A stretch of DNA of 64,000 bases from a virus, in the IMG/VR virus record IMGVR_UViG_3300046787_000316, positions 1-64,000 of that record; one strand, 5' to 3'. The notes under the pieces are model-generated. The model was not told where the DNA came from. It worked only from the letters and a program-made list of their open reading frames with translations, and made no database searches. The position numbers were made by a program, and so were the translations under genes. This document shows, one piece after another, positions 29,121 to 39,662 of the stretch. Every line of letters starts with the position of its first letter. The stretch's first letter is position 1.

Positions 29121-31364
29121 TTATCCGTTAAAACTAGCACCAGTTGGTAAAATGTTGAAATCAATTTGAATGAATTCAGCCGTTTTAGTTGGTTGTAAGA
29201 AGATAGAACCTTTCATAATGTTTCTATCGATTACATCTGGAGTGTTGTTTGATTCATCCATCACAACTTTAAATGCGTATAAACCTTGTCTTTGTTGGAT
29301 AGCCTCTAAATAAGGGTTAACGATATTTATAAATCTGTTTCTAGTTGTAGAAGTATTTTGTTCAAATACTAAATAACGAGAAGAAGATGCGATATACTTT
29401 CTTACAGTCAATAATAATCTTCTTACGTTGATTCTATCTAATGCAGATGGTTTATCTTGTAATGTTTTTTGTCCGAATACTACGATACCTTGTCCTGGGA
29501 ACTGAACGATTGGGTTCACTTTTCCTTCGTATAATGTATCTTTTTCTGATTGAGTCAATCTATTTTGAACTGAAACTGCTCCTGTCAAACCACCTCTATT
29601 TAAACCGGCTGGTGCGAACCATTCTGCTGCTACTCTATCATTCGAAGCGAATACGCCAGGTAATAATACTGATGGTGGAACTGAAATCAATTTGTTAGTA
29701 TTAACATCGATAGTCTTAACCCAAGGGTAATAAGTTGCTACCATGTTAGAATCTACTGCATCAGCTTGTGTTGTTGCTTGTGAGATAGTATCTCCGTATG
29801 AAGTTGAATCCATAATGTAGAAACAATCATTTCTTTGCTCAACCATATCCAATGTATCAGTTACAACTGATGAGTGTAATCTTCTGATAACACCTGGAGT
29901 TACAATCATATTAACATCCCATTCATCAGCGTTTGATAATGCTGCGATATGTTTTCCGTATGCTACTGAACCACTTGCAGTTGAAGATGATAAATCAAAA
30001 CCTTGTGAGTTTCCTGCTACAATATCAGAACCTTTATAAATTGGAGTTGCTGGATTTACACCATCAAATCCTTCTTGGAATCCTACTACGAATTGTGCAG
30101 ATGTTGAACCTACTGATAATGAACCACCATTAGCTACATCCAATCCGAATACTGAATTTGAACCTACACCTGCTCCAGTTGGAATTGGTTTTAAGTAAAT
30201 AGAGTTATCGGTATTAAAATCTAAATCGATACCACCATATTGAGTTGCCGATGCAGTTACGAATGTTACAGATGGAACTAATGCTCCAACTCCAGCAGAT
30301 GCTGATATAGGTAACGAATATGCAGCGTGTCCAAATGGAACGGCTTGAACCGGTGAATTTTCATTCAAGTTAACGATTCTGATATATTTTGAGTTATTTA
30401 CCCAATCTCCAGTTTCAGTAATTTTACCTGAACCATCGATTGTTAATTTTCTATCACCAATTACTCTACTAATAAAGTTTGGAGAATTAGGGTCTAAGTT
30501 TACATTAGAATAAGTTTCTAATACAACTTTCTTTTTATTTGTATCAGCAAAATCTCTAACAACTACTGTGAACGTTCCGTAATCAGTTCCGTTTACAGAA
30601 CCAGCTGCTTTAATATTTGTAATACCTATTTTAACTTTAGTGTTTGCAGAATTTCCAGCACCAATTGTTTCAAATTGGAACAAGTCGTATCTATCGCCAC
30701 TAATAGCTTGTGATTTAATTGAAGGAGTTGTTGCTTCTTGTGCATCAAATGTAAATAATTGGTTACCCAATGTAGTTACACTTACAGATGTAGTTACATC
30801 ATTGATTGTTACATTACTATTTTTGAAGAATCCATATACATACGCTCCTTTAGATGCGATTGCAGATGTTCCGAATGTAGATTCGATATCGTTTGTATCA
30901 GAATTATCTACTGATGATGTTCCTGCAAAATTAGTTGAACCCGTTACAGATAATGTGAAATCACCATTTGTTAAAGATACAAGTGTAGAACCACTTAATC
31001 CAGTTGCTAATGTATTTTTATCAGATGGGAATAAAATACCAACTGATGCACTTACTGCTCCAGAAGTTGCTGTTAATAATAAAGGAGCTGCTGCTGTATA
31101 TCCGCCAACACCACCTACTCTACAAATTGTTGCCGTTCCTGCTTCTCTCAAATACGATTGAACTGCCAACGGAGTGTAATATGTGTCATCTACATTACCA
31201 AACAATGTTTCAAATTCAGCTTGTGAATTTACTATTGTTGGAACTAAAGGACCTTCTTTAAAAGGACCAATAAATGCTGCACCGATTTCAGCTACACCTT
31301 GTTGTAAAAACGAAAGGTCATTTTCTTTTGTGAAAACCCCCGGTGATACTATTTTTTCTGCCAT
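29121..31364 (-). CDS. 18: Contractile tail sheath protein (T4 gp18 homologue)
   Basis: A 747-residue sheath subunit. It begins KIVSPGVFTKENDLSFLQQG, the standard sheath start, and ends in the conserved core: WFAPAGLNRGGL, a KINVR-type helix (DRINVRRLLLTVRKYI), RNRFINIVNPYLEAIQQRQG, KVVMDESNN and IQIDFNI. The middle is an expanded beta-rich outer domain, making it longer than T4 gp18 (659). It drives tail contraction. The next gene encodes the tube. Confidence 0.95.
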   Translation of the reverse strand: MAEKIVSPGVFTKENDLSFLQQGVAEIGAAFIGPFKEGPLVPTIVNSQAEFETLFGNVDDTYYTPLAVQSYLREAGTATICRVGGVGGYTAAAPLLLTATSGAVSASVGILFPSDKNTLATGLSGSTLVSLTNGDFTLSVTGSTNFAGTSSVDNSDTNDIESTFGTSAIASKGAYVYGFFKNSNVTINDVTTSVSVTTLGNQLFTFDAQEATTPSIKSQAISGDRYDLFQFETIGAGNSANTKVKIGITNIKAAGSVNGTDYGTFTVVVRDFADTNKKKVVLETYSNVNLDPNSPNFISRVIGDRKLTIDGSGKITETGDWVNNSKYIRIVNLNENSPVQAVPFGHAAYSLPISASAGVGALVPSVTFVTASATQYGGIDLDFNTDNSIYLKPIPTGAGVGSNSVFGLDVANGGSLSVGSTSAQFVVGFQEGFDGVNPATPIYKGSDIVAGNSQGFDLSSSTASGSVAYGKHIAALSNADEWDVNMIVTPGVIRRLHSSVVTDTLDMVEQRNDCFYIMDSTSYGDTISQATTQADAVDSNMVATYYPWVKTIDVNTNKLISVPPSVLLPGVFASNDRVAAEWFAPAGLNRGGLTGAVSVQNRLTQSEKDTLYEGKVNPIVQFPGQGIVVFGQKTLQDKPSALDRINVRRLLLTVRKYIASSSRYLVFEQNTSTTRNRFINIVNPYLEAIQQRQGLYAFKVVMDESNNTPDVIDRNIMKGSIFLQPTKTAEFIQIDFNILPTGASFNG

Positions 31365-31431: not shown

Positions 31432-33156
31432 TTACGGTCTGTAAGTTGGTTGGAAATAGTTATATACTTGTGCTATCTCTGTTGAGCCTAATACTCTATT
31501 ATAGAACAATGTAGGGCCCATTTGACCTTTTACATAGTTATCACCTCCTCCAATTTTTACCGGATATGATGATGTTGCAGCAAATGCCGATACAGTTCCC
31601 GTTCCAACACTACTACCATTTAGATAATATGTTATACCAGCGGCTGCTGATACGGTAACTGCTACCATGTGCCAAGTATTCAATGCAGGAGCGGAGAATG
31701 TTTGTATTGTGTTACTAACAGTCCCTCTTGCTGATGAAAAATGGAAACCATTCCAATCGGTAGTAGTAGATGAATATAAATAGAAATTATAATCTCTATC
31801 AGCCCCTTCTTTTGAAAATAATCCACCAAACATCATATTTTGTGCGGTAGTTTGTCTAATCCATGCGATATATGTTATAGCGGATGTATCGAATTGTGTT
31901 ATACCACCATTAATATTTGTACTTCTATCTTTATACCAAAATGAGTTAGTTCCATTTAATGTCCAATACTTATCAATTCGAGTTGCCCCATTATTGTACG
32001 CTGGGTTTGAGCCCGTAATACCTGCTGCGTTTTGAACACCAGCTGGTCTAAAACCTGTATTATATCCACTCAAATCCAACCAATCGGTTGTAGCAGTTCC
32101 ATTTGTAGATGCCGCTTTCGATGGGTCTAAATACATTCTTAATCCAGATGATGGAATATATGGTTGTGTAGTTGTTCCTTTATTATGTGAAATTAAACCA
32201 TTTGAAACATAAACGTCAGCGTTTTCAACATTGATTGTTACAATTTCAGCATCTGCCATAATTGTTTCAATGTTTGTAACTTCCACTTCGGTTTCATCAT
32301 CCATTACTAATTTATCTCCAGGTAAAATATCTCCTACATTTTTAAATGTGTATTTAGATATTTCATTATCCCAAACATACAATGGGTGAGTTTCGGTTGC
32401 ATTAATCAATCCGTTATTAATAGAGTAATACCCTTCGGTAAAATTAAATGTTAAATCATTAACAACTACATTTTGGATTGAACCCGATAATTCAGCTGAT
32501 TGGTAAAACCTCCATTCAACTTGGTCACTTTCAGAATCTTGCGTTTCATCCGGTAATCCAGCTGGCACCCATGCTTTGATTTCATCACCAACGTTTAAAT
32601 CCTCAACATTGATTTCAGTACCATTTGCTAATTCAACCTTTGTTCCAAATAATAAACAAAAATCAGGTTGGTTAATTGTATTATATACATCAACCGCATA
32701 TAAAGTTTTTGTAGTTGCAGTATTGTAATTGGTTGCATTAAGATTATACCCATCCGCATATTTCAATGTTAACAACGAAGATGCTTCCGAATAAGTAGAT
32801 TGCGCAATACCGGCTGGTGTGATTGGAAACGATGGAGATGCTCCTAATGTTGGAGAACCTACTGAAAAGTTTGCGTTATCAAATGATACCGTATAATTTG
32901 CCGATACACTACCAACTCTACTACCATGTACTGCTCCTGCACTACCAAATGTAAATCCAGCGGTTTCAGTTGTACTTTCAACAATATAAGTATATGTTGG
33001 TACGTTTGGTGTTACCGAATCAATTGCAAACGAACCGAATGAAACTTGCGTTCCAGCCGATGCATTTCTCGCATTAATCGATGATGCTTGGGTAGTCCTA
33101 GCTGTTCCGGTAGTTGCTCTATATAAATTACCTAATGATAGATTAGTTTTTGCCAT
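31432..33156 (-). CDS. Virion-type protein with internal Hint (intein-like) domain and LamG domain
   Basis: A 574-residue protein in three parts. Residues 1-166: beta-rich head starting KTNLSLGNLYRATTGTAR. Residues 167-325: a Hint domain starting with Cys167 in FCLLFGTKVELANGT, block B TETHPLYVW with His257, and ending DVYVSNGLISHNKG with His324-Asn325. Residues from about 335: a concanavalin/LamG-like domain (GLRMYLDPSKA, WHMVAVTVSAAAGITYYLNG). The residue after Asn is Lys, not Cys/Ser/Thr, so this resembles a bacterial intein-like domain that may cleave rather than splice cleanly. No homing endonuclease is inserted. Position among fibre genes and a late motif suggest an adhesin or decoration. 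Confidence 0.8.
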   Translation of the reverse strand: MAKTNLSLGNLYRATTGTARTTQASSINARNASAGTQVSFGSFAIDSVTPNVPTYTYIVESTTETAGFTFGSAGAVHGSRVGSVSANYTVSFDNANFSVGSPTLGASPSFPITPAGIAQSTYSEASSLLTLKYADGYNLNATNYNTATTKTLYAVDVYNTINQPDFCLLFGTKVELANGTEINVEDLNVGDEIKAWVPAGLPDETQDSESDQVEWRFYQSAELSGSIQNVVVNDLTFNFTEGYYSINNGLINATETHPLYVWDNEISKYTFKNVGDILPGDKLVMDDETEVEVTNIETIMADAEIVTINVENADVYVSNGLISHNKGTTTQPYIPSSGLRMYLDPSKAASTNGTATTDWLDLSGYNTGFRPAGVQNAAGITGSNPAYNNGATRIDKYWTLNGTNSFWYKDRSTNINGGITQFDTSAITYIAWIRQTTAQNMMFGGLFSKEGADRDYNFYLYSSTTTDWNGFHFSSARGTVSNTIQTFSAPALNTWHMVAVTVSAAAGITYYLNGSSVGTGTVSAFAATSSYPVKIGGGDNYVKGQMGPTLFYNRVLGSTEIAQVYNYFQPTYRP

Positions 33157-33161
33157 AATAT

Positions 33162-34163
33162 TTAGTTGTTCTCATTATAAATATCTAAAAGTTTTTCTTT
33201 CCATTCCTCTGTATTAGAAAAGTGGGTTATCATCCAACTTTTAAGTTTTTCAAATTCAGTTTTACGGGTTTCGTAATCATCTTCACACATTACTTTGTAG
33301 ATTTCATAAAATGATTCTTTACTATCCGCTTTGTATTTATAGTCAAGAGGTACGTGCCAGTTTTCATGTAAAATTGGAAGTTTTCCAAAATCAACTGCTT
33401 CGAATATTCCATATCCAAATGGTTCATGTTCAAAGCAAGAGTGAGATATTCCCCAATCAAGGTTATAGAACCTCTCTTTATATTTGTAATCAAATTTGTA
33501 AACCTTTGATTTCTCAAATTTATATCCGTATTTCTTTTTATAGTATTTATTGAATGTTTCAGAATTGGTTGATATGTAAGATTTTAATCCATCTATATAT
33601 TCCAAATTTTTTCTACCTTCTGCTCTAGCTGCAAATCCTATTGTCGTAGAGTCTGAAAGTTCTTTGTTATGTTTAAATTTATAAACATTTGGAATATGGT
33701 GTAGATTTTCAGTCTGATATGGGAAATGATATAATCCAACCCATATTTTATTTTTAATTTTATCAATTAATTCCGATTCGTATTCCCAATTTCCATACCA
33801 ATGTAAGTATTCATCCTTCCCCATTTGTGACATTAAAGACACTTTGGTTAAGTTATGAAATACTATCGAGTCAATCTTTTCCAAATTTTGGTGAATAGCT
33901 CTGGTAGGAGTATAATGACCATGTAGAATATGAATACGTCTTGCACCATCTAATATTTTTATTATTTCATCTTCCGATGTTTCCCAAATATGGTCGATTT
34001 CTATCGGAAATTGTTCGTAGTTATTTGGCTTCGTTCTATGTAACAAAAGAAGTGGCTTCACTTCTAAATGAGGTGCCACTTCTTTTATCCATTCGGTTAC
34101 CCACATATCTGCCCCACTATTAAACCAGGGCCCACCAGCGGTGGTGTAAAAAACATCATACAT
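33162..34163 (-). CDS. Glycosyltransferase (GT-B type) within the fibre cluster
   Basis: A 333-residue protein with GT-B features: an N-terminal domain with a GGPWFNSGADMWV loop, a middle strand TIGFAARAEGRKNLEYIDGL typical of GT4 proteins at the start of the donor domain, and SCFEHEPFGYGIFEAVDFGK, the E-x7-E-like donor motif (EPFGYGIFEA). The substrate cannot be read. Lying 3 bases downstream of the S74 fibre gene and 5 bases upstream of the Hint-LamG gene, it may glycosylate fibres or other virion proteins. Confidence 0.75.
   Translation of the reverse strand: MYDVFYTTAGGPWFNSGADMWVTEWIKEVAPHLEVKPLLLLHRTKPNNYEQFPIEIDHIWETSEDEIIKILDGARRIHILHGHYTPTRAIHQNLEKIDSIVFHNLTKVSLMSQMGKDEYLHWYGNWEYESELIDKIKNKIWVGLYHFPYQTENLHHIPNVYKFKHNKELSDSTTIGFAARAEGRKNLEYIDGLKSYISTNSETFNKYYKKKYGYKFEKSKVYKFDYKYKERFYNLDWGISHSCFEHEPFGYGIFEAVDFGKLPILHENWHVPLDYKYKADSKESFYEIYKVMCEDDYETRKTEFEKLKSWMITHFSNTEEWKEKLLDIYNENN
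33176..33184 (-). promoter_or_regulatory. Late motif ATATTTATA
   Basis: Exact nonamer 19 nt before the ATG of the Hint-LamG protein, inside the end of the glycosyltransferase gene. Confidence 0.55.
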
Positions 34164-34166
34164 TGA

Positions 34167-37079
34167 TTATAAACCTTTTTTCTTTTTTAATGTTTCTACT
34201 TCTACTGTAAGGTTATCTATTTTTATTTGTTGTTCTTTTATTGCTTCAACTAATAACCCCATCATTTTAGAATAATCCAATCCTAAATATCCGTTTTCTC
34301 TTTCTACTACAACTTGCGGTAATACTGCCTGAACTTCTTGTGCAATTAAACCTGTGGTTGGTGTTGTTTTTGTTACTTCATTCACATCATCATTCCATTC
34401 CCAAGTTACACCATTCAATTTCTTAACTTTATCCAAAGCATTTGTAATAGTTTGAATATTGTTTTTGTGTCGTCTATCCGAAGTATAGAATGCGGTAATA
34501 TCGCCTGTTGCGGTAATAGTTCCGTTAATTGTTAAGTTACCAAATGTTGGAGTAGCGTTTGTTGCTACCGATTGTCCAATTGATATCGTTACTGCGCCGG
34601 TTGCCCCACTTACACTAACACCCGTCCCAGCTACTGCCGAAGTTACACCGGTATTACTAATGGTAGAATTACCTGTTCCAGATGATACCGATATTCCCGT
34701 ACCTGCTATATTTGTAGTTACAGTATTGGTATCAGTTACCGATTCAGTTCCCGTACTATACCCCGTAACGTGCCCGTATGTATCAAATGTTAATGCTGAT
34801 ACATAAGTTCTACTTGTAGCGCTTAAATTAGCTGCGGTAGATGTATCGGCATGGCTAATAGTAACTGCTCCAGTTGCTCCACTCACATCAATAGCGTTTC
34901 CTGCTACTGCCGATGTTACACCTGTATTTGTAATAGTAGATGCTCCCGTTGCCGAACTCACCGATATACCCGTACCTGCTACGTTTGAAGTTACACCTGC
35001 ATTGTTTAGAGTTATAGTCCCACCCAATGATACCAATCCACCGCCAGTCATTCCCGTTCCAGCGGTTACGGTTACGGATGAATTACTCAATTGCCCGTTT
35101 GTAATTCCACTTATTTGAGATGAGCCGGATACTAAATTTGGTATTGTTATATTAGATGAACCATCGAATGATGTTCCGTTAATCAATCTAGCAGTCAATA
35201 ACGTATTTGCAGTAGATGCGTTTCCAACTATTGTTCCAACAATACTACCGGTTACTTGTAAATTTCCTGGAATAGAAACAGTATCATTATCTACATAAAT
35301 CTGCGATGAACTAATATGGTCGCCACCAACTGAAACTGCTAATCGATTTGAAGTTAATCCAACTTCCGAACCCAATGCTCCAGTGTTACGAGGGCCAGAT
35401 ATAAACATACCACCACTATATGCACTACCACTTGATTTTTGATAAATCCATCTTTCATTTTCGGAATCCCAAAATAAAGAACCCGTTCCTGCGGTTGAGC
35501 CTGAATCAAATACAGATATACCACCAAATCTAACAGCAGGTGTATCGTTATTTAAGTTAATAATATTAGTTCCAATTGAAACTACCGATGCTGATATATT
35601 TTGTAAAGATGAACTACCTTGTACAATCATATCACCACTTATATACATTGAACCCGTTATAGTCTGTGTTCCTGTGAATATATTAGATGAATTGGTTCTT
35701 GCAAAAGTTCCACTAATTGCTTCATTAGCCGCCAATCTTTGTTCGTGATTTGATGCGGTTAGTATTAATGATGCACTTATTGTAGCTAATCCACTAAATC
35801 TACCATCCACACTTGATGTGTGAGATTGGATAGATGTTAATTTAGCATCTTGTGCATTATTTGTAGATAACGCAGTTGCGGCAGATGCTTCAACATTACT
35901 TAAACGTAAATCTTGTGCGTTATTTGTAGTAATATCTGAACCTGTGTAAGCTATTAATGCTGCTATTTTATCGTTAATACTACCTGTATATGTTGCTAAT
36001 GTTTGAAATTTCGCATCAGTTGAACCCGTAGCAGATGTTAAAGAGTTTAATGTATTCAAACTCAATCCACCAACTACACCAGTATTATCTACAAACTTAA
36101 TAGAGCCAGTTGAAAGATATAAATCTTTAAAATAATTTGTAGATGAACCTAAATCAAATGTATTAGCTGAATCAGGTAATACGGATGATGAAATGTGAAT
36201 TTCGTTATTATTATCAATTGTAATAGCAGGTGTATCCCATTGCCCTCCACCAAATAAGTGAGTGTGGGCATGTGAACCTGTTCTATATGGTCCTATATAA
36301 ATATCAGCAGCGGTAGTGGTTAAATATGCATCATTTTCATATCCTAAAACTCCAGCCGAATAATTTGATGAGTTTAATCCTAAATCTAAAAAGTCACGAG
36401 TTTCGCTTGAAATATCATTCCAAAGAACTAAGTCGGTTGATGCATTTGAACCACTTCCAAAGTTTTTAATGTTAACTTCAACAAAACTTTCATTTTTAGA
36501 TGATTGGAATGTTGCAATGTTAAACGAATCCCCATTATCAACAATTAATCTTTCCGGCTGAGCCGCGTTGAATCCGGTTGTTCCAACTCCAATTGTTGAA
36601 CCACTATTAGTAATTTGTATAGCGGATGCACCAGCTATACTATGTTCATCCGTAAAATATGCTAAATGATTTTCTGAACCTGTTATATTACTAGCTCTAA
36701 AGTACCCCGTATTCAATGAATGGGACATATATACCGAACCATTGAAGATATGGGTATCATCTGCACTATCACCAAATTGAGTTGAACCACTTTCATATAA
36801 AACAGAAGAAGATACGACTGAAGTGTGTATCTCTTTTGCTGTTATAGTTCCACCAATGATAACGTTACCATCGATTTTTGCGTTTCCGGTAATATCCAAT
36901 GATGAACCCGAAATACCTGCTACCGATAAATTACTCCCCGTACCAATTGCGGATAGTGTTACATCGCCAGAATCTAATCCAATTTGTAGAGTTCCTAATG
37001 TTGTATTTACATACGGCTCTCCGAATGCTAACGAACCTGATTTCTGTGCGGTTGTCCCACGTCTAAATTTAAGTGCCAT
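34167..37079 (-). CDS. Tail fibre protein with C-terminal S74 chaperone domain, 970 residues
   Basis: Trimeric-fibre type protein. The N-terminus LKFRRGTTAQKSGSLAFGEP matches the adaptor seen in the other fibres. The shaft has repeats with NAQDxxL and TGSxxTK, then a module FGGISVFDSGSTAGTGSLFW shared with the 746-residue fibre, and beta-helical repeats with AGTGISVSSxTG near the end. The C-terminal about 110 residues form an S74 intramolecular chaperone: YTSDRRHKNNI (catalytic Ser and Lys), TGLIAQEVQAVLPQVV and a coiled coil. S74 domains assist trimer folding and cut themselves off. Confidence 0.88.
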   Translation of the reverse strand: MALKFRRGTTAQKSGSLAFGEPYVNTTLGTLQIGLDSGDVTLSAIGTGSNLSVAGISGSSLDITGNAKIDGNVIIGGTITAKEIHTSVVSSSVLYESGSTQFGDSADDTHIFNGSVYMSHSLNTGYFRASNITGSENHLAYFTDEHSIAGASAIQITNSGSTIGVGTTGFNAAQPERLIVDNGDSFNIATFQSSKNESFVEVNIKNFGSGSNASTDLVLWNDISSETRDFLDLGLNSSNYSAGVLGYENDAYLTTTAADIYIGPYRTGSHAHTHLFGGGQWDTPAITIDNNNEIHISSSVLPDSANTFDLGSSTNYFKDLYLSTGSIKFVDNTGVVGGLSLNTLNSLTSATGSTDAKFQTLATYTGSINDKIAALIAYTGSDITTNNAQDLRLSNVEASAATALSTNNAQDAKLTSIQSHTSSVDGRFSGLATISASLILTASNHEQRLAANEAISGTFARTNSSNIFTGTQTITGSMYISGDMIVQGSSSLQNISASVVSIGTNIINLNNDTPAVRFGGISVFDSGSTAGTGSLFWDSENERWIYQKSSGSAYSGGMFISGPRNTGALGSEVGLTSNRLAVSVGGDHISSSQIYVDNDTVSIPGNLQVTGSIVGTIVGNASTANTLLTARLINGTSFDGSSNITIPNLVSGSSQISGITNGQLSNSSVTVTAGTGMTGGGLVSLGGTITLNNAGVTSNVAGTGISVSSATGASTITNTGVTSAVAGNAIDVSGATGAVTISHADTSTAANLSATSRTYVSALTFDTYGHVTGYSTGTESVTDTNTVTTNIAGTGISVSSGTGNSTISNTGVTSAVAGTGVSVSGATGAVTISIGQSVATNATPTFGNLTINGTITATGDITAFYTSDRRHKNNIQTITNALDKVKKLNGVTWEWNDDVNEVTKTTPTTGLIAQEVQAVLPQVVVERENGYLGLDYSKMMGLLVEAIKEQQIKIDNLTVEVETLKKKKGL

Positions 37080-37139: not shown

Positions 37140-39662
37140 TTATTTTTGTTCCAATCTATCAACTTTTGCAGATAATTCTTTAACTGCTTCAATTAATAAT
37201 GGAATTAATTTTTCATATTGAACTGCTTTATATCCAGTATCTCTGTTTGTAACTAATTGTGGTAATATACTTTCAATCTCTTGTGCAATTACCCCCACAT
37301 CATTTCCTTTGTGAGAATGTATTTCTTCAAATCCTTCTTTCCAATCATACGTGTTACCACTAATTTGATTTACTTTTTCTAAAGCGTTTGGAATTGGGAT
37401 AATATTTTCTTTTAATCTGATATCCGATGAGTAAAATGCGGTAATATCACCTGTTGCTATAATTTCACCAGCTACACCGGTTGGCGATACATTAACACCA
37501 ATTGAATTGAATTGATAATTCCCAACTGAACCACTATGAATACCGCTACCTTTCAATTCGTATGAACCCGTAACTGCTTCCAATGAAGTCAATCTACCAT
37601 TTTGCGTAGTGTTTAACGTATCATTTGAACCCGTATAAGTATTTAACGATGATAGTATATCAATCACTTGTGATGAACCGGATACTACCCCTCCTATCAG
37701 ATTAGCTGTAATGTTGCCATTTGTAATAGTAAAATCAACAGTATTGGAATCAGTTGATGCCGATACTATATTTGTTCCACCTAATACTTGAATAGAACCA
37801 CTCAATACTCCTTCAACATTCAACTTAGTTTTAATAGTTGTATCAATTGATGAAGTAAATGAATTTAATTCAGAAAGGCTGATATCCACACTTGCGGATT
37901 TAGCTTCTAAATTATCCAAGCGGCTATCAGCCGATGTGGTGAATTGATTTATATAATGTAAACTACTACTAGCCGATGAAGTAAATTGATTTAACGAATC
38001 TATTGCCGCTGATAAATTACCAGGGTCTAATACACTAATTCTATAATCAAAACTTTCACTAACCGCATCGTATGAATTTGAAAAATCAGTAAATACTGAT
38101 GCTGAAAAGAAGTTAATAGAAGCGCTGAATAAATTTAGTGATGCGGTTGTTTGGTGTATTGATGTTAAATCACTTAATACACTTGCACTAAACGTATTTA
38201 AACTTGCCGTTGAACTTTGTACTTCTACAAATTTAGTATCAATTGAGCTTGTATAAGTTTGTAATACTAAATCTTTTGATTCTTGTGAACCACTAAATGT
38301 ATTTAATAATGAAACAGAGTTATCAATACTAGCCGAAGTTGTTTCTAAATTACCCAAACGACTAGCTGCGCTTGAAGTGAATGTATTTAAACTAGCAGTG
38401 GCTACTCCTACATTATCAAATTTAGTATCAACCGAACCAGTATAGGTTGCCAATGTTACTAATCTATTTTCAATTGATGCCGTTTCGTTATTAATATGTA
38501 CAATACTAACATCAACACTTGATGATTTGGTTTGTAAATTTGTTAATCTACTATCTACCGATGTTGAAAATGCCCTAAAATCGGTTGAACCTGATAATAC
38601 ACCATCTCCACCTGCTAATAATATTTTTGATTCTAAATCTTTCTTACCAGCTTTCCAATAATCAGTAGTTGAATCCCATAATAATGAACCCGATATAGTT
38701 GAACCACCCGTTGCATCTTTTGTATAAATTCCAGCTTCGGTAGCAGAACCACCAAAGTTTAATTCTAATATGTTTTCACCAATATTAACTTGAGTTGAGT
38801 TAATTTGAGTAGTTGTTCCATTCACTGTTAAGTTTCCTAATACAGTCACATCTACTCCACTTAAATCTATTGCAGTTTTAAGAGATGATGTATATGAATG
38901 AATTTCTGCCAAAGAAACATCAACTGATGCTGATTTAGATTCTAAATTAGATAGTCTACCTAATGCGCTTGAACTAAATGAATTTAAACTTGCAGTTGAA
39001 CTTTGTACTTCTACAAATTTAGTATCAATCGATGCAGTATAAGTTGCTAAAGTTAAATTTTTAGATTCTTCCGAAGCACTGAATACATTCAAACTTGCCG
39101 TTGAATATTGTGTTTGTAAGAATTTTGCATTAACAGAACTTGTATAAGTTGCTAAAGTTAAATTTTTAGATTCTTCCGAAGCGCTAAATGAATTTAAACT
39201 TGAAGTAGAATATTGTGTTTCTAAAAATTTAGATGAAACCGATGCCGAAAATTCTCTTACATCGCCTATACCTTCGATTGCTCCTGATATAAATGAAGCA
39301 GATACAGTTTCAACATATATACGTTTGTACCATTTATCCTCTGAACCTAAATCATAAGTTTTAGTTATGTTTGGAATGATATCAGAATCTAAGTCAGCAT
39401 TAATCGTAATCGAATCGGTAGTCTGGTCACCAATTGTGATATTACCACCAAGTACAACGTTACCACTAATATATGCGTTTGAAGCAGTCAAATCGCCACT
39501 CAATATCATTGAGCCGATATTTTCTTCATTTAACTTTGCTAAAGTTACAATATTAGTATCACTTCCTACTTGTAATGAGCCAGAGTTTTTATGTAAGTAT
39601 AATTCGCCATCCATTAATGATACCGAACCCGAACCTCTTCTTATTTGAAATATAGCTGCCAT
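37140..39662 (-). CDS. Tail fibre protein with C-terminal S74 chaperone domain, 840 residues
   Basis: N-terminus AAIFQIRRGSGSVSLMDGEL is the shared adaptor. The shaft carries many copies of a heptad-like unit of the type YTSSVNAKFLQTQYSTASLN and FSASEESKNLTLATYT, giving a long coiled coil. A central beta module (INIGENILEL-like, SGSLLWDSTTDYWKAG) matches other fibres. The C-terminus YSSDIRLKENIIPIPNALEK, VGVIAQEIESILPQLV is an S74 chaperone. Protein repeats imply repeats at DNA level, prone to slippage or recombination. Confidence 0.85.
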   Translation of the reverse strand: MAAIFQIRRGSGSVSLMDGELYLHKNSGSLQVGSDTNIVTLAKLNEENIGSMILSGDLTASNAYISGNVVLGGNITIGDQTTDSITINADLDSDIIPNITKTYDLGSEDKWYKRIYVETVSASFISGAIEGIGDVREFSASVSSKFLETQYSTSSLNSFSASEESKNLTLATYTSSVNAKFLQTQYSTASLNVFSASEESKNLTLATYTASIDTKFVEVQSSTASLNSFSSSALGRLSNLESKSASVDVSLAEIHSYTSSLKTAIDLSGVDVTVLGNLTVNGTTTQINSTQVNIGENILELNFGGSATEAGIYTKDATGGSTISGSLLWDSTTDYWKAGKKDLESKILLAGGDGVLSGSTDFRAFSTSVDSRLTNLQTKSSSVDVSIVHINNETASIENRLVTLATYTGSVDTKFDNVGVATASLNTFTSSAASRLGNLETTSASIDNSVSLLNTFSGSQESKDLVLQTYTSSIDTKFVEVQSSTASLNTFSASVLSDLTSIHQTTASLNLFSASINFFSASVFTDFSNSYDAVSESFDYRISVLDPGNLSAAIDSLNQFTSSASSSLHYINQFTTSADSRLDNLEAKSASVDISLSELNSFTSSIDTTIKTKLNVEGVLSGSIQVLGGTNIVSASTDSNTVDFTITNGNITANLIGGVVSGSSQVIDILSSLNTYTGSNDTLNTTQNGRLTSLEAVTGSYELKGSGIHSGSVGNYQFNSIGVNVSPTGVAGEIIATGDITAFYSSDIRLKENIIPIPNALEKVNQISGNTYDWKEGFEEIHSHKGNDVGVIAQEIESILPQLVTNRDTGYKAVQYEKLIPLLIEAVKELSAKVDRLEQK

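Follow-up and report, generated by a model that had tools for sequence, protein, structure and literature searches.

Class 1 protein splicing requires Cys, Ser, or Thr at position +1, directly after the Hint domain, for the branched intermediate; class 3 inteins have a non-Cys first residue and a Cys in block F (WCT), and in Hedgehog (Hog) proteins the Hint domain is followed by a sterol-recognition region. A-type BIL domains, reportedly described by Amitai in 2003 and Dassa in 2004, vary in the residue at +1. Those that have the C-terminal His-Asn pair and no +1 nucleophile mostly cleave and weakly splice by aminolysis, an attack on the thioester by the amine set free on the C-part (PMC4031507). 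For BIL2 of Tetrahymena BUBL1, a C-extein lysine is reported as the nucleophile and an isopeptide bond as the product (PMC8616854). Full-text searching of open-access literature turned up no publication on a Hint domain in a phage adhesin.

Here, we analyze a Hint domain located between an N-terminal domain and a LamG part in a phage protein. The window, i.e., the whole stretch of DNA studied, comprises 64,000 nucleotides (positions 1 to 64,000) of the 137,364-base virus record IMGVR_UViG_3300046787_000316; the features are collected in Table 1.

Comparison with Known Hint Domains

Conservation was assessed over a set of 148 DNA-distinct complete members of the family, reaching about 42% identity. 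The domain shares with the A-type BIL of structure 2lwy the common Hint fold (TMt 0.77), Cys1, TxxH, the C-terminal His-Asn, and the absence of an endonuclease; neither has Cys, Ser, or Thr at +1, and both lie between modules with a variable C-side part. Cys1 and the C-terminal His-Asn are present in 148 of 148 members, all of which have Lys, not Cys, Ser, or Thr, at +1, and, as regards the variable regions typical of BILs, which lie in proteins that are themselves not conserved, the LamG side is exchanged and the N-domain is conserved. The differences are that the domain belongs to a phage and to a probable virion protein, that Lys at +1 is invariant and not variable, that the domain is fixed, and that its activity is predicted. 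BIL2 (6Y75/6TMM) is the best Foldseek Hint match, a likeness at the level of fold, and its reported nucleophile, a C-extein lysine that is not necessarily at +1, is a second point of likeness; it differs in its ubiquitin-like flanks and its eukaryotic origin. As for BUBL-type use of lysine, the Lys here is invariant at +1 and is a putative nucleophile.

Class 1 mini-inteins share Cys1, TxxH, and HN and also have no endonuclease, but the domain differs from them by the missing +1 nucleophile: +1 is Lys326, T328 is not conserved in the second clade, and intein-free alleles are absent among the complete members. Unlike class 3 inteins, the protein has Cys167 as its first Hint residue and no WCT block F Cys, and, unlike in Hedgehog proteins, the Hint domain is followed by a LamG domain. 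The tail Hints of jumbo phages (NCTB, Erwinia Y3/Yoloswag, Dickeya AD1, Yersinia fHe-Yen9-02) can be aligned over the full length (hhalign E 1.4e-15), but they form the very C-terminal end, behind collagen-like repeats, and have Thr, Val, Met, or Ala at +1. In the Hint tree, they did not group specifically with the family, the deep branching being without resolution.

Domain Structure of the Protein

The open reading frame, whose strand and length were checked in the ORF list, encodes 574 aa, among which Cys167 is the sole cysteine. The sequence around H257 reads ETHPLY, and the C-side junction reads LISHN/KGTTT (H324, N325, K326), where the slash marks the end of the Hint domain.

The Hint assignment was tested by Foldseek on an AF2 model (pLDDT 77.5) and by profile–profile comparison with hhalign. 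For the single sequence, Pfam support was weak (Intein_splicing E = 0.04; AXH 1e-3). Foldseek matched BIL2 of Tetrahymena BUBL1 (TMt 0.69–0.73 and E as low as 1.7e-8 for 6tmm/6y75), the BIL of C. thermocellum (TMt 0.77 and E 3.5e-7 for 2lwy), and, with TMt 0.74, the Prp8 intein, while hhalign against the tandem/PT-HINT set and the jumbo-tail Hints gave end-to-end alignments (E 3e-15 and about 1e-15, respectively) that keep Cys1, TxxH, and HN in register. On the basis of the BIL and intein matches and the profile–profile E of about 1e-15, the assignment of residues 167–325 to a genuine Hint domain is firm. A 153-aa predicted structure from BFVD superposes on the domain (TMt 0.89); from its equal length, we infer that it is the stand-alone Hint of phage NCTB.

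For the C-terminal part, PF13385 was detected in 28 out of the 35 relatives, with 2.6e-17 as the best value, and Foldseek gave a ConA/LamG fold. The AF2 model of the N-domain is confident (pLDDT 86.7, pTM 0.81) and beta-rich, and no PDB structure matched it at E ≤ 1e-3 (best 5.5e-3). Both Hint junctions are predicted to be flexible (on the C-side, pLDDT < 50 at linker residues 326–332) yet are highly conserved.

These data largely bear out a first-pass annotation made from the sequence of the window. The reading frame and the key residues Cys167, His257, His324, and Asn325 stand exactly where it had placed them; the 159 residues of the Hint domain are too short to house the homing endonuclease that it had reported absent; the usual C-extein nucleophile, which it had called missing, is replaced by Lys326 in 148 of 148 members; and its LamG assignment agrees with both the PF13385 hits and the fold. 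Its label of "anchor" for the N-domain, whose beta-rich fold has no clear counterpart among solved structures, is unsupported.

Table 1. Positions of the Hint–LamG gene, its parts, and its neighbors in the window
Feature	Position	Strand	Basis or remark
Whole Hint–LamG protein, 574 aa	31432..33156	−	ORF list; full-length IMG/VR relatives
N-terminal domain, residues 1–158, beta-rich	32683..33156	−	AF2 model
N-side junction NTINQPDF, residues 159–166	32659..32682	−	Flexible (pLDDT < 50 at 156–164); strongly conserved
Hint (intein-like) domain, residues 167–325	32182..32658	−	Foldseek, hhalign, 21 invariant columns
Cys167, first Hint residue, putative thioester nucleophile	32656..32658	−	TGT codon in 148/148
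Block B TxxH, T254–H257	32386..32397	−	Both residues invariant; codons vary synonymously
His324-Asn325, C-terminal Hint motif	32182..32187	−	Invariant; CAT/CAC and AAC/AAT all common
Lys326 at +1, not Cys/Ser/Thr	32179..32181	−	Lys in 148/148 (AAA 143, AAG 5)
Linker KGTTTQPYIPSSGLRMYLDP, residues 326–345	32122..32181	−	dN/dS 0.094, lowest among segments
LamG/ConA-like lectin part, residues 346–574	31435..32121	−	PF13385, fold matches
Tail sheath gene, downstream neighbor	29121..31364	−	PF04984, PF17482, phrog_23
Glycosyltransferase-like gene	33162..34163	−	GT-B-like by eye only

Distribution, Conservation, and Selection

No fewer than 80 IMG/VR loci carry full-length relatives with 62–78% identity, with 253 stretches as candidates in the pattern scan; altogether, the IMG/VR pattern scans gave hundreds of matching stretches, and about 190 full or partial members were read. 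The family members were found only in uncultured phage contigs. The pattern scan of genome contigs gave no cellular homologues, the 50,697 phage records gave nothing beyond remote Hint matches, and scans seeded with LR756508 proteins gave no matches. In the nearest cultured relatives, Flavobacterium phage immuto and Microcystis phage Mel-JY01, other genes precede the sheath, with no N-domain, Hint, or LamG match. The carriers are uncultured T4-like phages from freshwater that form a large group, with the domain permanently fixed in a probable adhesin gene. Among the candidates rejected as family members, the Lak, Gordonia, Proteus, and similar phages have ordinary inteins in other proteins, the Ruminococcus phage matches are PT-HINT, and the LR756508 match is a distant Hint without TxxH.

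The Hint domain has 21 invariant columns among the 148 complete members. C167, T254, H257, P258, E304, T307, S323, H324, and N325 do not vary, nor do Lys326 (+1) and Gly327 (+2) after the domain. Since the catalytic residues are kept by all of these members, the residue pattern is not due to chance, and since third codon positions differ at most of these sites, it is the protein sequence that is held constant. The second clade, 42% identical, has Leu for Phe at −1 and Ala or Ser for Thr at +3 and keeps SHN/KG.

The dN/dS values (medians over about 60 pairs by a simple counting method, to be read as a relative measure only) were 0.188 for the Hint domain, 0.186 for the N-part, and 0.194 for the C-part, with 0.094 for the 20-residue linker that follows the Hint domain. 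The Hint value (0.19) equals that of the flanking parts, and the domain is therefore not decaying, so that we reject a decaying intein. No Hint-less allele was found among the complete members; the N-domain homologues without it were truncated or interrupted contigs. Three family members (L152, L177, and L272) are broken inside the Hint domain by a stop or frameshift; these breaks are probably assembly errors and possibly real split forms.

The LamG parts are swapped behind a co-inherited N-domain/Hint unit, because the C-part diverges where the N-domain and Hint domain stay nearly identical. In some pairs, identity is 1.00 in the N-domain, 0.96 in the Hint domain, and 0.37 in the LamG part. 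The Hint domain is at least 0.95 identical but the C-part less than 0.6 in 23 pairs, and there was no pair with N-domain identity of at least 0.95 and Hint identity below 0.75; the pairs are of related sequences, and the independent exchange events are fewer than the pair count.

Genome Neighborhood

By its portal, its tail sheath and tube, and its S74 tail fibers, the virus belongs with the T4-like contractile phages; its portal and sheath were matched best by those of Mel-JY01 and immuto, with about 48–52% identity. The order of the glycosyltransferase-like gene, the Hint protein, and the tail sheath is nearly fixed: the sheath adjoins the Hint gene in 142 of the 144 loci with room, and the glycosyltransferase-like gene lies directly upstream in 132 of 134. 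Judging from its position beside the sheath, the tube, and the S74 fibers, the Hint–LamG protein is a probable virion adhesin.

The glycosyltransferase-like gene gave no match in Pfam or PHROG. A homologue (35.7% identical) is located beside a Hint-bearing protein in the 484-kb phage LR756508 (L323:3485–4504), and the presence of this gene next to a Hint protein in two phages suggests a functional link. In the window, two long tail fibers (34167–37079 and 37140–39662, both on the minus strand) have C-terminal S74 chaperone domains; the start of the former is Mtd_N-like (E 5e-5, below the Pfam cut-off).

Other Hint Domains in Phages

The HN/K motif recurs in distant phage Hints, at the protein end in LR756508 (HNKH), in NCTB (HNKVD), and in a tandem-Hint protein of a relative, whose last Hint ends in HNK, and internally in another relative (HN/KVTTTTS). 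In other Hints from phages, the +1 residue is Thr, Val, Met, Ala, Phe, Leu, or Tyr, and Lys at this position is thus recurrent, not general. In LR756508, NCTB, and the tandem-Hint protein, the tails after HN/K have one to three residues, to which ligation would add almost nothing; this speaks against taking every HN/K for a ligation site.

The tandem-Hint protein of relatives (735–765 aa; L398:3860–6124(+), L399:3444–5651(+), L400:3645–5942(−)) has a degenerate Hint, whose terminal HN either adjoins Cys1 of a second, strong Hint or precedes it by no more than two residues, and then a third Hint; its N-terminal part looks ATP-grasp-like by eye (E.NTD, RLAYDE). The virus's own record (124143–125528(−)) and L334 (143–1528(−)) encode a 461-aa protein that ends in a degenerate Hint, VIHNYCPNQK, with neither Cys1 nor TxxH, and seems to be related to the tandem-Hint protein in a shortened form. 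The LR756508 portal match (record 145778–149521) falls into three segments that span 3.7 kb, a pattern that inteins or introns could produce. Cultured jumbo phages L322, L324–L329, and L374 encode collagen-repeat tail proteins that end in a Hint and a short tail; their annotation is virion structural protein or tail protein.

Discussion

We consider it moderately likely that an active, fixed, A-type-BIL-like Hint domain self-processes a probable virion adhesin. A thioester would arise when Cys167 attacks the carbonyl of Phe166, with T254 and H257 assisting, and Asn325, helped by His324, would cyclize and cut the chain before Lys326. The thioester may then be hydrolyzed, so that the Hint domain leaves and the N-domain and LamG part are both free, and/or be attacked by an amine of Lys326 in the freed LamG part, which would join the N-domain to LamG; a branched ester is impossible because +1 is Lys and not Cys, Ser, or Thr. 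We lean toward cleavage as the larger flux and regard ligation as a serious possibility; in either case, such phages would probably cut or re-join the adhesin unlike ordinary inteins. The complete invariant catalytic set, the purifying selection, the fold nearest to BILs, and the end-to-end alignment with other Hints support self-processing, as do the absence of Hint-less alleles among complete members, the LamG exchange, and the conserved junctions, whose predicted flexibility a processing site would require. It counts against this reading that simple hydrolysis needs no invariant Lys and that gene splitting, of which none was seen, could replace a cleaver.

T328 as a substitute nucleophile is ruled out, since +3 is Ala or Ser in the second clade; Lys326-Gly327 alone stay fixed. 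If only water or the alpha-amine took part, one would expect drift in the side chain at +1, but Lys at +1 and Gly at +2 never change, and a role of the Lys326 side chain is plausible by analogy with the BIL2 lysine. An active-site role or a function as the mature LamG N-terminus would explain the invariance equally. That the side-chain amine itself is the splicing nucleophile on the Cys167 thioester, with Asn325 cyclization completing release and yielding an isopeptide-linked adhesin, or one covalently fixed to the virion, without Ser, Thr, or Cys, seems quite unlikely.

It is unlikely that the domain is a splicing mini-intein with Lys at +1, i.e., an immobile persistent insertion whose main product is the joined N-domain–LamG protein. 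The splicing residues are complete apart from the +1 nucleophile, both junctions are under strong selection, A-type BILs show amine-driven splicing, and the top Hint match, BIL2, makes an isopeptide bond via a C-extein lysine; however, intein-minus alleles are absent among complete members, a homing endonuclease is lacking, the class 1 requirement for Cys, Ser, or Thr at +1 is unmet, and the insertion site is outside a conserved enzyme motif. Very unlikely, in our estimate, is a conjugation device, in which a nucleophile of some other virion component would take over the N-domain from its Cys167 thioester, comparable to the transfer onto cholesterol in Hedgehog and onto other proteins in BIL2. 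In the cultured jumbo-phage tail proteins, which end in a Hint and a short tail, N-side chemistry alone would matter, but these C-terminal Hints are distant, a candidate acceptor is lacking, and the C-side HN/K, which pure N-side transfer does not need, is conserved as much as the N-side. Equally improbable is that the Hint no longer reacts and serves as a chaperone or in a structural role: these phages do contain degenerate Hints, including the second Hint of the same genome, which has lost Cys1 and TxxH, but that paralogue is a picture of relaxed selection, whereas every catalytic residue is invariant over the 148 members, in a domain much of which varies.

The first-pass annotation had proposed that this Hint would separate the N-part from LamG or transfer it to another nucleophile, a fair inference by analogy with the repertoire of A-type BILs (PMC4031507); conservation, selection, and fold agree that the domain is apparently active. 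Its description of the protein as "virion-type" stands as far as gene position beside the sheath, tube, and S74 fibers carries it. Its word "unusual" for the maturation should be toned down, since a BIL class without Cys, Ser, or Thr at +1 has been described and tail proteins of cultured jumbo phages have C-terminal Hints. The architecture, which it had suggested looking for in other phages, occurs in 148 complete uncultured members. The invariant Lys, the fixation of the Hint domain in the family, and the swapping of LamG behind it go beyond that annotation.

With its unchanging Lys at +1, this Hint domain, which is natural, abundant, and under strong conservation, offers a testbed for the purpose of BILs, and the cultured jumbo-phage Hint tails offer an easier system for phage Hint processing. 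If Lys326 is indeed the splicing nucleophile, there would be a lysine-based class of protein splicing in viruses, with the Hint domain as a fixed joint for maturation and module exchange. If processing occurs, these phages would have a self-contained way to mature and swap an adhesin, which may also provide a lysine-specific ligation tool.
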